From positions 1 to 53,677 of the forward strand of contig WRLL01000005.1 of NCBI GenBank assembly GCA_009777625.1: a stretch of DNA of 53,677 bases, in the 5' to 3' direction. Numbering within the stretch: the first letter of the stretch is position 1; each line of letters starts with the position of its first letter. The notes beneath the pieces were generated by a model. That model did not search any database. It had not been told where the DNA came from and saw only the letters and a program-made list of their open reading frames with translations. Made by a program: the position numbers and the translations under genes. Shown here piece by piece: positions 23,865 through 28,326 of the stretch. The stretch comes from Candidatus Saccharimonadota bacterium (GTDB taxonomy: Bacteria; Patescibacteriota; Saccharimonadia; Saccharimonadales; Saccharimonadaceae).

Positions 23865-24410
23865 ATGAGCAAGCAAGAGTTTCTACAGAAAGAAATGCGA
23901 AATTTCATCGTTAATGTGGGTTGGACACATAAAATACATATTGCACAGTCTGATATTTACGAGAGTAAAGCTAACACCATAAAATATGCCAAGATTGTAT
24001 GCGCCGCACTAACGTCAGTTGGATTAGGAAGTTTTGTTTTGCAAGTTCTACCAGAACACCAAACTGTATCTTTAACGATAACTTTTATCTTCTCATTAGC
24101 GGCTACATTTATAAGCTTGCTAGAGAAAGAGAGTGATTATAAAAAGTTGTCCGAGCAAACCAAAATTACGGCGAATAGATTTTGGGAACTCCGAGAGGAT
24201 TGTGCTAGCTTGCTCTACAGATTAAAAAGCGGTGATGACGTGAAAGATATTGCTAAAGAGTTTAATGAACTAAAGAAGTTGCGGAAAGTATGTAACGCCG
24301 AGTTACTTAACCCCTCTAAGAGAGCTGTTGCCCTTGCCTCAAAAAGACTAAAAATAAGTCGTGATAACGACTACACCAACGACTACAAGTATTTTAACCT
24401 AGAGGATTAG
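23865..24410 (+). CDS. SLATT-domain-like two-TM protein (putative CBASS-type membrane effector)
   Basis: 181 aa, two adjacent hydrophobic segments (AKIVCAALTSVGLGSFVLQVL / SLTITFIFSLAATFISLL) flanked by charged helices; overlaps the nucleotidyltransferase start by 1 nt. Confidence 0.7.
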   Translation: MSKQEFLQKEMRNFIVNVGWTHKIHIAQSDIYESKANTIKYAKIVCAALTSVGLGSFVLQVLPEHQTVSLTITFIFSLAATFISLLEKESDYKKLSEQTKITANRFWELREDCASLLYRLKSGDDVKDIAKEFNELKKLRKVCNAELLNPSKRAVALASKRLKISRDNDYTNDYKYFNLED

Positions 24411-25645
24411 TGGTGGTTACGGATTATGCAAAAACTCTAAAGATAGCCGAAGAAGAGCTGGATACGTGGCGAGACCGTATAAGCAAAATCAACAACAAGC
24501 TATCCGAGTATTACTATGAGGAGCGGATAGATAAGACTTTACTGGTCGGCTCTGTTGGGCGTGGCACGGCAATCACAAAAACTAGCGATTATGATGTAAT
24601 CTTTATACTCCCGCAGGAAGTCTATAGTAGATTTGATAGTTATGAAAGTAATGGTCAGTCGGCGTTACTCCAAGAGGTGAAGAACATTATTAGCGAGCTA
24701 TATTCCAGCACTGAAATTAAAGCGGACGGTCAAGTGGTTGATGTGAGTTTCGGTGATGGCACGATTGAGTTAGTCCCAGCATTTGAGCAGTCTGGTGGGA
24801 GTTTTAAGTTTCCTGATAGCCACGATGATGGAAGTTGGAAGATTACTAAACCGATACCAGAGATAAATAAGGCAAGCTCTATGGAAAGCGGCAGCTTAGG
24901 CATTTATGGTTGCTTATGTCGCCTGATGAGACAATGGAAGAACCACGTAGGTTTTTCGTTTAAGGGCTTGCTAGTTGACACTATGGTGTGCAACTACCTA
25001 GAGAGCGACGACGGCTACGCGAGCAAGTCGGAACTAGATTTATTGAAAGGGCTGTATGAATATCTATCGCAAGAGGACAAAGACAAGAGTTATTGGCTTG
25101 CATTAGGCAGTAACCAGCAAATAGACAACGATGACAAAGGAAGATTTGTTTATAAAGCCAGTCAAGCACTAAAAAAGTTTGACGATGATAATAGCGAAGA
25201 GGAAATCTTGAGTGAGTTGTTTGGCTATAACCAATCCAAGTCTAAAGCCCCAGACGAAGAGTTTATTGAAAACAAGTTTGACATAGATATACGCCACAAT
25301 ATCAAACTTGATTGCGAAGTAACACAGGACGGATTTTTGATTAGGAAATTGTCGGAATACTTACAATTAAAGTGGAAGATTAAGAAAGATAAGTCCCTAA
25401 AGTTTGAGATTGTGAATAGTAGTATCCCCCGCGATTTACCCATAAGATATTATTGGAAAGTCAGAAATGTTGGTCGTTATTCTACTGGAAAAGAACGTGG
25501 AAAGATTTTTGAGGGCAAGAAAAAGCACACAGAGCGTAGTGATTTTAATGGAAACCACTATGTTGAGTGCTATGCCGTGTTAAATAATGTTGTTGTGGCG
25601 AGAGACCATATTGACGTGCCGATTGATGTAGAGAGTGGCGTATAG
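24410..25645 (+). CDS. SMODS/CD-NTase (cGAS/DncV-like) nucleotidyltransferase with C-terminal AGS-C-like sensor domain
   Basis: LLVGSVGRGTAITKTSDYDVIF (GS...DxD), TIELVPAFEQ; C-terminal RDLPIRYYWKVRNVG...GNHYVECYAVLNNVVVARD; GTG start. Confidence 0.82.
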   Translation: MVVTDYAKTLKIAEEELDTWRDRISKINNKLSEYYYEERIDKTLLVGSVGRGTAITKTSDYDVIFILPQEVYSRFDSYESNGQSALLQEVKNIISELYSSTEIKADGQVVDVSFGDGTIELVPAFEQSGGSFKFPDSHDDGSWKITKPIPEINKASSMESGSLGIYGCLCRLMRQWKNHVGFSFKGLLVDTMVCNYLESDDGYASKSELDLLKGLYEYLSQEDKDKSYWLALGSNQQIDNDDKGRFVYKASQALKKFDDDNSEEEILSELFGYNQSKSKAPDEEFIENKFDIDIRHNIKLDCEVTQDGFLIRKLSEYLQLKWKIKKDKSLKFEIVNSSIPRDLPIRYYWKVRNVGRYSTGKERGKIFEGKKKHTERSDFNGNHYVECYAVLNNVVVARDHIDVPIDVESGV

Positions 25646-25869: not shown

Positions 25870-26097
25870 TTATTTGCCCTGCTTATTCCGTATATCAGTA
25901 TTAGTGAAGCCACGCTTTGCCATAGCCTCATCAAAGGTCTTGTCCATATAGAACAAATCACCAAACCAACCAAAGAACATATAGTTACAAGTTACACTTC
26001 GCCAAAATGCCCCTTTTGAGTTTCCTAAATACCAACGATTAATCGGTAGTATAAAACTACACGCGGTTAGTATTTTGTATGTTTTGCGGTCTTTCAT
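25870..26097 (-). CDS. TM2-domain-like small membrane protein
   Basis: ILTACSFILPINRWYLGNSKGAFWRSVTCNYMFFGWFGDLFYMDKTFDEAMAKRG; SD AAGGAGTGCATAATG. Confidence 0.65.
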   Translation of the reverse strand: MKDRKTYKILTACSFILPINRWYLGNSKGAFWRSVTCNYMFFGWFGDLFYMDKTFDEAMAKRGFTNTDIRNKQGK

Positions 26098-26140
26098 TAT
26101 GCACTCCTTTCTTATGAGTTAACTTTATAATCGGAGTGCC

Positions 26141-26284
26141 AATAAAAAGGGACACCGCCGACGGTGTCTTAAACTGTCTTTTCCGCAATAGGTGTTACCT
26201 GCTGTTTCGGGCGATGCCCCTTTTTACAGGTAACCTCTCGGAAAATCCGATAAGTTCCTATTGCATTATTTTCAGTTTAAGACA
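26141..26284 (-). ncRNA. candidate riboswitch-like leader or standalone structured RNA ending in an intrinsic terminator
   Basis: Nested perfect stems 26165-26176/26273-26284 (12 bp), 26185-26192/26257-26264 (8 bp), 26194-26201/26227-26234 (8 bp), hairpins 26209-26219 and 26238-26250; terminator stem 26151-26157/26162-26168 followed by a minus-strand U-run. Confidence 0.72.
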
Positions 26285-26289
26285 TTTCT

Positions 26290-26298
26290 ATTATATCA
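26290..26298 (-). promoter_or_regulatory. extended -10 promoter (TGATATAAT) for the structured RNA
   Basis: Minus strand TGATATAATAGAAATGTC; predicted +1 is about 26283, at the edge of the 12-bp closing stem. Confidence 0.65.
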
Positions 26299-26465
26299 CA
26301 ACACCGTTAATCTGACGTTTAGCGGCTATGCTTGTCTATACTGAAAAAATGTTGAACCAATTTATTTATAAGCACCGTAGGTCTAGGCTATGAAGTAGCC
26401 TGGAGGAAGCGCAGCCCAATGGCTCGTAAGAGCCGCAGGGAGAAAGGTTAAGGTATAATAGAGGT

Positions 26466-28262
26466 ATGGCAGAGCGGAAGAAACGAGTAGTGAAGCCACT
26501 AACTGAAGAACAACTGCTCAAAGCGGAGCAGTTAGCGGCTAAAAAACTAAGGGACAACCCTGATTTCTATGATTTGCCAGAGAGTAAATATAGTGTAGAT
26601 AACGTAGCGGACTTCTACACGAAGATTGAAGAGGGGCGCAAACAACGTATCTTACCGCCAGAGAAAAGCCGTTACATAATCTATCTACGCAAGTCAACAG
26701 ACGACGAGGCTAAACAAGTCCGCTCATTAGAAGACCAAAGGGTTGAGTGTCTGATGTTAGCCCGCAGGCTCAAGATTAGGGTGAGAGAAGAAGATATTAT
26801 TGAAGAGAAAGGGTCGGCTAAAACATCAGATAACCGCCCTGCTTTTACTAAGATGTTAGACGAGTTTAAGAGAGGCACTTATCAAGGGTTAATTAGTTGG
26901 TCGCCTGACCGCTTATCTCGTAATATGAAAGAGGCAGGTGAAATTATTGAGATGTTAGACCTCAAGCAAATCCAACACCTACACTTTATCACCCACCACT
27001 TTGACAATACGCCCGACGGTAAGATGATGTTGGGTATCTTATTTGCTACTTCCAAACAATACTCCGACAAACTAGCGGTTGATGTTGTGCGAGGTATTAC
27101 GGGCAATGCGAAAGAGGGCAAGTATGGCGGCAATATCAAGAAAGGTTATTATGGGGACACTAAGACGGGCTACTTTATGCCAGACGGGACACAATGGCAA
27201 TTATTGCGCCAAGCCGTCTTAATGAGACTTAAGGACGGTAAGACGAACCAAGAAATAGCCGACTTCCTCAACGAAGCGCACTTTAGTAGCCGCAGAAACG
27301 AAGAGGACGATTATAAGATAGTTAAAATGACCAAGCAGAGTATCAGTAAGTTATTCACTGACCCGTTTTATTGCGGTGTCTATAAGTATGGAGAGAACGT
27401 AGCCAACCTAAATGATTTGTATGATTTCTTGCCCCTTGTAACGCCTGATGAGTTTATATCGTTGGGACGCAGTATATCTGACAGTTTCAATAAGGAGTTT
27501 AGGGGGCGTTCTACTTCTTCACAACGCCTTGATTTTGGGCTGTTGCGGGAGAAAGTTATTTGTGATTATTGTGGCAAGGTTATGACCTTTCAACGCACCA
27601 TAATCCCCAAAGGTAAGAACAAGGGCAAGTATATGCTTAGTTTCTATTGTCGCAATAAGCAAGAGTGCATACGCCACAACGATAGTGAGGCTATCAAGAA
27701 GTATGGACATAAACTAACTAAGGGCGTGCGGGCTAAATACATCACGGCGGGCATTGAGTGGACGCTAAGACACCTAACTAAAAACACGCTAGAGGCGTAT
27801 AAGCAATATATCGGACGCTTAGAACAGAAATTAGCCGTAGATAAAGAAGTCGCCAAGCGTAAATTAAAGGACGCTCAAGATAACTTGAAGCGAGAGCAAG
27901 AGTTGTATAACAGATACAGAAACTTCCAATCCATTGACCCCATAGAGTATAAGAAGCACCACAAAGGCAGGCTTGAATGCCACAAGAACCTAGTAGATGC
28001 CCATACCGTGAGTGTTGCGAATATGAAGCGAGAGTTGGTGAGGCTAAACGAGGCTTTGCCGACTGAAGAGCAATTTGTTGAACTTGTGAAGTCTTATCTG
28101 AAGACCGTGCTTAAAACCAAAGATTTGGTTGAAGAAGACGCAGTGTATAAAGAAGTGGTGTTGAACCTACGTGTCGGACACAACGCTATCTCTGTTATAA
28201 ACTTAAATCCACCATACGATTTGATGGTGGATTTAGATAAAGTCGCTTTTGGTGGGTTGTGA
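26466..28262 (+). CDS. large serine recombinase
   Basis: YIIYLRKSTDDEAKQVRSLEDQRVE, LISWSPDRLSRNMKEAGEI, Zn-ribbon VICDYCGKVM...CRNKQEC, coiled-coil C-terminus. Confidence 0.93.
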   Translation: MAERKKRVVKPLTEEQLLKAEQLAAKKLRDNPDFYDLPESKYSVDNVADFYTKIEEGRKQRILPPEKSRYIIYLRKSTDDEAKQVRSLEDQRVECLMLARRLKIRVREEDIIEEKGSAKTSDNRPAFTKMLDEFKRGTYQGLISWSPDRLSRNMKEAGEIIEMLDLKQIQHLHFITHHFDNTPDGKMMLGILFATSKQYSDKLAVDVVRGITGNAKEGKYGGNIKKGYYGDTKTGYFMPDGTQWQLLRQAVLMRLKDGKTNQEIADFLNEAHFSSRRNEEDDYKIVKMTKQSISKLFTDPFYCGVYKYGENVANLNDLYDFLPLVTPDEFISLGRSISDSFNKEFRGRSTSSQRLDFGLLREKVICDYCGKVMTFQRTIIPKGKNKGKYMLSFYCRNKQECIRHNDSEAIKKYGHKLTKGVRAKYITAGIEWTLRHLTKNTLEAYKQYIGRLEQKLAVDKEVAKRKLKDAQDNLKREQELYNRYRNFQSIDPIEYKKHHKGRLECHKNLVDAHTVSVANMKRELVRLNEALPTEEQFVELVKSYLKTVLKTKDLVEEDAVYKEVVLNLRVGHNAISVINLNPPYDLMVDLDKVAFGGL

Positions 28263-28326
28263 GGGACTCGAACCCCCGGCCCTCTCGGTGTAAACGAGAT
28301 GCTCTAGCCAACTGAGCTAACAACCC
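28254..28326 (-). tRNA. tRNA-Val (TAC)
   Basis: Reverse complement GGGTTGTTAGCTCAGTTGGCTAGAGCATCTCGTTTACACCGAGAGGGCCGGGGGTTCGAGTCCCTCACAACCC; anticodon loop TTTACAC. Confidence 0.95.

Follow-up and report, generated by a model that had tools for sequence, protein, structure and literature searches.

A structured leader RNA preceding a TM2-like gene in a Saccharimonadota genome is likely a transcription attenuator of an undescribed RNA family

The stretch of DNA analysed here (hereafter the window; 53,677 nucleotides of contig WRLL01000005.1, Candidatus Saccharimonadota bacterium) carries on its minus strand an RNA of P1-P2-(P3,P4) architecture, followed by a terminator and then by a gene for a TM2-like membrane protein. 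The RNA is likely a cis-acting transcription attenuator, that is, a self-contained promoter-switch-terminator leader belonging to an undescribed RNA family, although no expression data are available and the literature search turned up no RNA-seq paper. Its constituent parts, their conservation and covariation, the fixed promoter spacing and the position just before a same-strand ORF are shown by the comparisons described below. The RNA begins 5 nt past the -10 box, and its elements, with the basis of each assignment, are as follows.

26290..26298, minus strand: extended -10 promoter TGATATAAT, with TG at 26298-26297 and TATAAT at 26295-26290 (read from sequence)
26273..26284, minus strand: P1 5' strand UGUCUUAAACUG, 12 bp, expected transcript start (sequence)
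26257..26264, minus strand: P2 5' strand GCAAUAGG, 8 bp (fold and family pairing)
26235..26256, minus strand: P3 hairpin region (predicted fold), whose 3' side is an alternative partner of the antiterminator arm in many relatives
26227..26234, minus strand: P4 5' strand GUUACCUG, 8 bp (fold and family pairing)
26210..26226, minus strand: antiterminator arm in the P4 apical loop, UAAAAAGGGGCAUCGCC, complementary to 26143-26159 (covariation)
26194..26201, minus strand: P4 3' strand CAGGUAAC (fold and family pairing)
26185..26192, minus strand: P2 3' strand CCUAUUGC (fold and family pairing)
26165..26176, minus strand: P1 3' strand CAGUUUAAGACA (sequence and family pairing)
26151..26168, minus strand: intrinsic terminator hairpin GACACCG-UCGG-CGGUGUC, then CCTTTTTATT
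26143..26159, minus strand: terminator 3' arm (T-arm) plus U-tract, GGCGGUGUCCCUUUUUA, with the terminator 5' arm or the P4 loop as alternative partners
26101..26140, minus strand: possible second hairpin GCACUCC/GGAGUGC over the SD, weak (seen in the sequence)
25870..26097, minus strand: TM2-like membrane protein gene, 75 aa (Pfam TM2 E 0.13, below cut-off; homologues)

The predicted fold of 26090-26320 (minus strand) reaches -76.3 kcal/mol; dinucleotide shuffles average -47.3 +/- 4.2 (z = -6.9), and none of 200 folds as stably. GACA at the 3' end of P1 is also the start of the terminator, downstream of which lie the SD and the ATG at 26097. The P4 loop includes GGGGCAUCGCC, and a 17-nt complementarity (inverted repeat I3) connects the loop (26226-26210) with the terminator 3' arm and U-tract (26159-26143); a small GGGC/GCCC hairpin is present as well. 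All elements listed by the original prediction, which placed a possible new riboswitch or attenuator on the minus strand of 26141-26298, were found there, including the GACA common to P1 and the terminator. The competition it had proposed between P1 and the terminator also held but was too narrow, the main antiterminator strand being the P4 apical loop, and the complementarity between this loop and the T-arm, which is the most informative feature of the family, had been missed. The label "TM2-like" is weakly supported by Pfam; the protein has clear homologues.

The distribution of the RNA was determined with two covariance models. The first (R1), built from eight TM2 leaders and run against 393 genomes of the order, finds the RNA in 50 of them, mostly without a TM2 gene. 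The second (R2), built from 47 RNAs, gives matches in 63/216 genomes and 44/129 genera of the order Saccharimonadales, corresponding to about 30% of sampled genomes. The source genome itself (G000) has a second copy on contig 31 (919-1049; R2 E 1.8e-13). When applied to a sample of the phylum, R2 matched 19 of 290 genomes, seven of them outside the order and five of these convincing, meaning that the family also reaches other classes of the same phylum. One match (L141, E 0.009) was discarded as a family member given its coding-like sequence, and two others (L146 and L140) are doubtful. No Rfam 15 match above the gathering cut-off was obtained for the window and 20 homologue loci, apart from tRNAs; STnc430, which surfaced in a permissive Rfam scan of the window element, lies on the opposite strand, reaches only 19.9 bits where the cut-off is 47, and is regarded as a chance match. 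The plasmids and phages searched showed no DNA similarity to the window element, and a prophage context was dismissed, as the neighbourhoods of five other matches and of the second copy in the source genome look chromosomal. Neither this RNA nor any regulatory RNA was found described for Saccharibacteria in the full-text literature searched, from which subscription papers and preprints were excluded. The RNA family is, in summary, widespread in Saccharibacteria and, as far as these searches reach, undescribed.

The structure is strongly supported by covariation. An alignment of 60 rows (57 RNAs plus three opposite-strand matches) had 94.7% of its cells paired and 561 double changes, with 0/500 shuffles performing as well. 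The opposite-strand model matches at TM2 loci stem from near-palindromy and were excluded from a later alignment of 75 RNAs, in which, with the pseudoknot between P4 loop and T-arm included, 93.0% of cells were paired and 831 double changes were counted (0/500 shuffles), the covariation score being 0.70 versus about 0.1 for slid structures. Within these 75 RNAs, pairing amounted to 95.9% of cells in P1 (double changes at 10/12 pairs), 92-94% in P2 (at all pairs) and 93.5% in P4 (at all 9 pairs). Two qualifications apply. Paired-cell counts refer to sequences and not to independent events, and because P1, P2, P4 and the inner terminator guided the fitting of the alignments, these helices are biased towards the model; the pseudoknot is a cleaner test because it is absent from both R1 and R2. 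P1 starts with GU and ends with AC in 75/75 RNAs, the AC being common to P1 and the terminator and nearly always part of GAC or AAC. The unpaired bases are poorly conserved, with almost none exceeding 90% identity outside the pairs, promoter and terminator and only a few positions above 85%, and loop and junction lengths differ widely across the family. The conserved loop bases 3' of the antiterminator arm include A149 (93%) and A155 (85%). The original prediction had named missing covariation in homologues and an Rfam match as outcomes that would refute it; neither occurred, and its possible new attenuator is well supported, whereas its "riboswitch" label remains without proof of ligand binding.

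The evidence for an antiterminator comes mainly from the P4 apical loop, which is complementary to the terminator 3' arm and U-tract in 60/60 RNAs, with 1/3000 shuffles as good. One column pair of the pseudoknot (128-260) appears as G-C in 38 RNAs, C-G in 25 and U-A in 1, and is never broken, while column 260 shows no covariation with its opposite base in the terminator. Since this column covaries with the P4 loop and not with its terminator partner, the loop and the terminator 5' arm compete for one strand. Swapping T-arms between RNAs lowered pairing from 89.7% to 79.4% (maximum 81.4 in 200 tries), the swapped arms still pairing at 79% because loop and T-arm match over a partly conserved core (CACC/GGUG). 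The predicted energies average -21 kcal/mol for the antiterminator duplex versus -8 for the terminator hairpin, and in 78/79 cases the antiterminator fold comes out ahead of the nested one when no pseudoknot penalty is charged, with a margin above 8 kcal/mol in 82%. The nested fold of many relatives (for example L032, L041, L132 and L134) hides the antiterminator arm in a hairpin formed with the P3/P4 side, which would function as an anti-antiterminator. This is only a tendency across the family (mean 17.2 versus 13.3 for shuffles) and was not detectable by the anti-antiterminator test in the subgroup of the window, where the arm can fold on itself (GGGC/GCCC).

Two further sequence features were considered as parts of the switch and set aside. 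An extra antiterminator motif, complementary to the T-arm, occurs in the first 32 nt past the terminator, just after the U-tract (for example in L119, L111 and L073); its enrichment over shuffles (p about 1e-7) is modest, and it follows the termination decision. A hairpin sequestering the SD is found in a subset only (p = 0.06) and was not retained as a family trait.

The RNA is regularly found as part of a promoter-leader-gene module. A -10 box with at most one mismatch precedes 74/77 members, 58 of them with TGN, and the gap between this box and P1 is 5 nt in 60 and 6 nt in 13 of the 77. With the distance fixed in this way, transcription is expected to begin where P1 begins, at its base. A same-strand ORF starts within 60 nt downstream in 63/76 members and within 120 nt in 69/76, and one criterion for an attenuator, an intrinsic terminator between promoter and gene, is met. 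Annotation of the downstream proteins with Pfam, PADLOC and PHROGs, together with their grouping by sequence, revealed dozens of families. The second copy in the source genome precedes an Ltp-type superinfection-exclusion lipoprotein (phrog_4980 at 2e-47), and other copies precede a DUF4352 protein with Sie-like similarity, DUF805, YgjV and DUF4190-like proteins, DNA methyltransferases of five kinds (EcoRI, Eco57I, MmeI/IIG, N6/N4 and C5), surface proteins and many small membrane proteins. The genes served are accessory ones with a surface and phage-resistance flavour and form no single metabolic pathway. Nine matches at E <= 0.001 come from a single genome (G233), and most of those examined precede members of a paralogous surface-protein family; these copies (L175-L183) could conceivably provide separate ON/OFF control of the surface repertoire.

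Relatives of the TM2-like gene occur in 14/393 genomes of the same order, the named records being Saccharibacteria and other Patescibacteria MAGs, and also in Oenococcus phages and three IMG/VR contigs, beside which the RNA was not found. An RNA of the same layout lies directly upstream of the full-length TM2-like genes, with one exception (G017). At that locus (L034) the gene and terminator are kept, and the 5' half of the RNA and the promoter are replaced by other sequence, as in a broken copy. Two loci (L023 and L024) have C-terminal fragments of TM2-like genes (DKTFDEAMAKRGF...) that adjoin tRNA-Gly and tRNA-Leu and begin near the same residue, and they are perhaps scars of past integrations. 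Within the window, the RNA-TM2 unit adjoins a CBASS-type two-gene locus (23865-25645, plus strand) composed of a SLATT_4 2TM effector and a SMODS/CD-NTase with an AGS_C domain (Pfam; PADLOC cyclase E 9e-126). On its other side, a large serine recombinase gene (26466-28262, plus strand) runs with its 3' end into a tRNA-Val gene (28250-28326, minus strand), which suggests an integrated element ending in the tRNA. A conserved box, GGTTCAACnnTTTT, mostly followed by GTATA(T), lies at 26334-26358 between the divergent recombinase and the RNA promoter and is also found at L031, L032, L036, L038, L042 and L043. It resembles a tRNA T-loop and might be an att or operator site.

In the proposed model, transcription would start at the first base of P1, and the RNA would fold into P1, P2 and a three-way junction (P3, P4) presenting the P4 loop, so that the emerging terminator 3' arm would meet two possible partners. 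Pairing of this arm with the P4 loop would form the antiterminator pseudoknot, of 11-17 bp and extending into the U-tract, leaving P1 intact and allowing read-through into the gene. With the P4 loop occupied, the 3' arm would instead pair with the terminator 5' arm, P1 would lose its GAC(A) end and transcription would stop after about 144 nt. The occupier of the loop would be the alternative P3/P4-side hairpin in many relatives and possibly the loop's own GGGC/GCCC hairpin in the subgroup of the window. The alternation of two folds in the cell, the identity of the ON fold, regulation of the gene and conditional read-through are all inferred. A further criterion for an attenuator, a covarying and mutually exclusive antiterminator, is met and makes this reading likely in the absence of expression data; against it stand the failure of the downstream genes to form one pathway and the undetected anti-antiterminator in the window's own subgroup. 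The signal may be a metabolite, a protein, an antisense RNA or folding kinetics, none of which has been identified.

Two of the other explanations considered concern what would set the switch. A true riboswitch, with the antiterminator or the terminator fold stabilised by a small molecule or ion bound at the P2/P3/P4 junction or in the P4 loop, would be a sub-case of the attenuator and is possible, no binding data being available. The architecture resembles that of ON-switches whose terminator is opposed by a pseudoknot, conservation is seen at some loop bases (A149 and A155) on the 3' side of the antiterminator arm, and the RNA precedes many different genes, as riboswitches for signal molecules do. 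However, metabolite aptamers usually keep a strongly conserved pocket, and the poorly conserved unpaired positions and variable loop and junction lengths are mild evidence against one; moreover, the downstream genes point to no metabolite. A protein, an antisense RNA or folding kinetics can hardly be ranked below a metabolite, or above it. An attenuator set specifically by a macromolecule, be it an RNA-binding protein or an antisense RNA, or merely by the speed of transcription and the folding that accompanies it, is likewise possible. It would be consistent with a conserved fold of variable sequence, with the alternative hairpin that occupies the antiterminator arm in many relatives, and with the recurrence of one sequence, three to four times within each leader and in mutually complementary form, that classical attenuators also show. 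Nevertheless, no candidate protein was found, and no antisense promoter at a constant position could be recognised on the other strand, where the count of 44/77 members with some -10-like hexamer is unspecific.

The remaining two explanations deny a leader function. A free-standing small RNA acting in trans, with the gene transcribed separately, would account for a promoter of its own at fixed spacing and for stems sealing both ends. It is unlikely, given that in 63/76 members an ORF with a ribosome-binding site starts on the same strand no more than 60 nt away, that these ORFs belong to dozens of families, as expected for a leader, and that the antiterminator complementarity lies in cis and covaries. 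A DNA-level element, either an att site or a palindromic mobile sequence of the adjacent serine recombinase, finds some support in the related large serine recombinase located divergently upstream in 9/15 loci of the TM2 subgroup, 7 of those 9 with the conserved GGTTCAACnnTTTT box between recombinase and RNA. Yet this box is not part of the RNA, most family members lack a TM2 gene, the neighbourhoods examined are made of ordinary chromosomal genes, and covariation including G-U pairs together with the fixed promoter points to an RNA, which makes the explanation very unlikely.

The attenuator reading, which remains the preferred one, can be placed among known systems. Like the fluoride/crcB and ZTP/pfl ON riboswitches (for example the ZMP switch, PMC7337938), the leader has a junction and a pseudoknot opposing an immediately downstream terminator, with transcription as the output. 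It differs from them in forming its pseudoknot through a long apical loop, whose partner is the 3' arm and U-tract of the terminator, and in lacking a strongly conserved pocket, a known ligand or an Rfam match. Repeated complementary segments that pair exclusively and a terminator just before the gene are shared with classical attenuators (trp type; plasmid rep leaders pIP501/pT181). Unlike these, the leader has no leader peptide that could be seen and no antisense RNA shown, its promoter stands at a fixed distance from the first stem, and the partner of its antiterminator is the final segment (the terminator 3' arm), not the preceding one. T-box leaders (RF00230) are likewise structured and have an antiterminator/terminator pair at their 3' end, but the genes downstream here are not amino-acid genes, cmscan gave no T-box match in the window and 20 loci, and no specifier loop or UGGN bulge was seen. 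Type III toxin-antitoxin loci (ToxIN) present the same succession of promoter, structured RNA, terminator and small gene; in contrast, the genes following the leader belong to dozens of families, no ToxN-family RNase was found among their products (Pfam, PADLOC, PHROGs) and there is no repeat array.

A bolder reading, which is no more than possible, would see in these leaders a phylum-wide, portable class of Patescibacteria switches that keep genes for the cell surface, superinfection exclusion and DNA methylation silent; a single common signal would then flip the antiterminator, and phage attack, host contact or a nucleotide messenger are examples of what it might be. As an expression platform, an antiterminator in which an apical loop opposes the 3' arm and U-tract of the terminator is itself unusual. 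The lack of inducible expression systems is recognised among those who study Saccharibacteria (PMC11665869), and the leader, which makes the signal searchable, could become a genetic tool. If the attenuator reading is true, this compact and portable leader, which brings its own promoter and a clear ON/OFF fold, would provide about 30% of the sampled genomes with a basic means of regulating accessory and surface genes.
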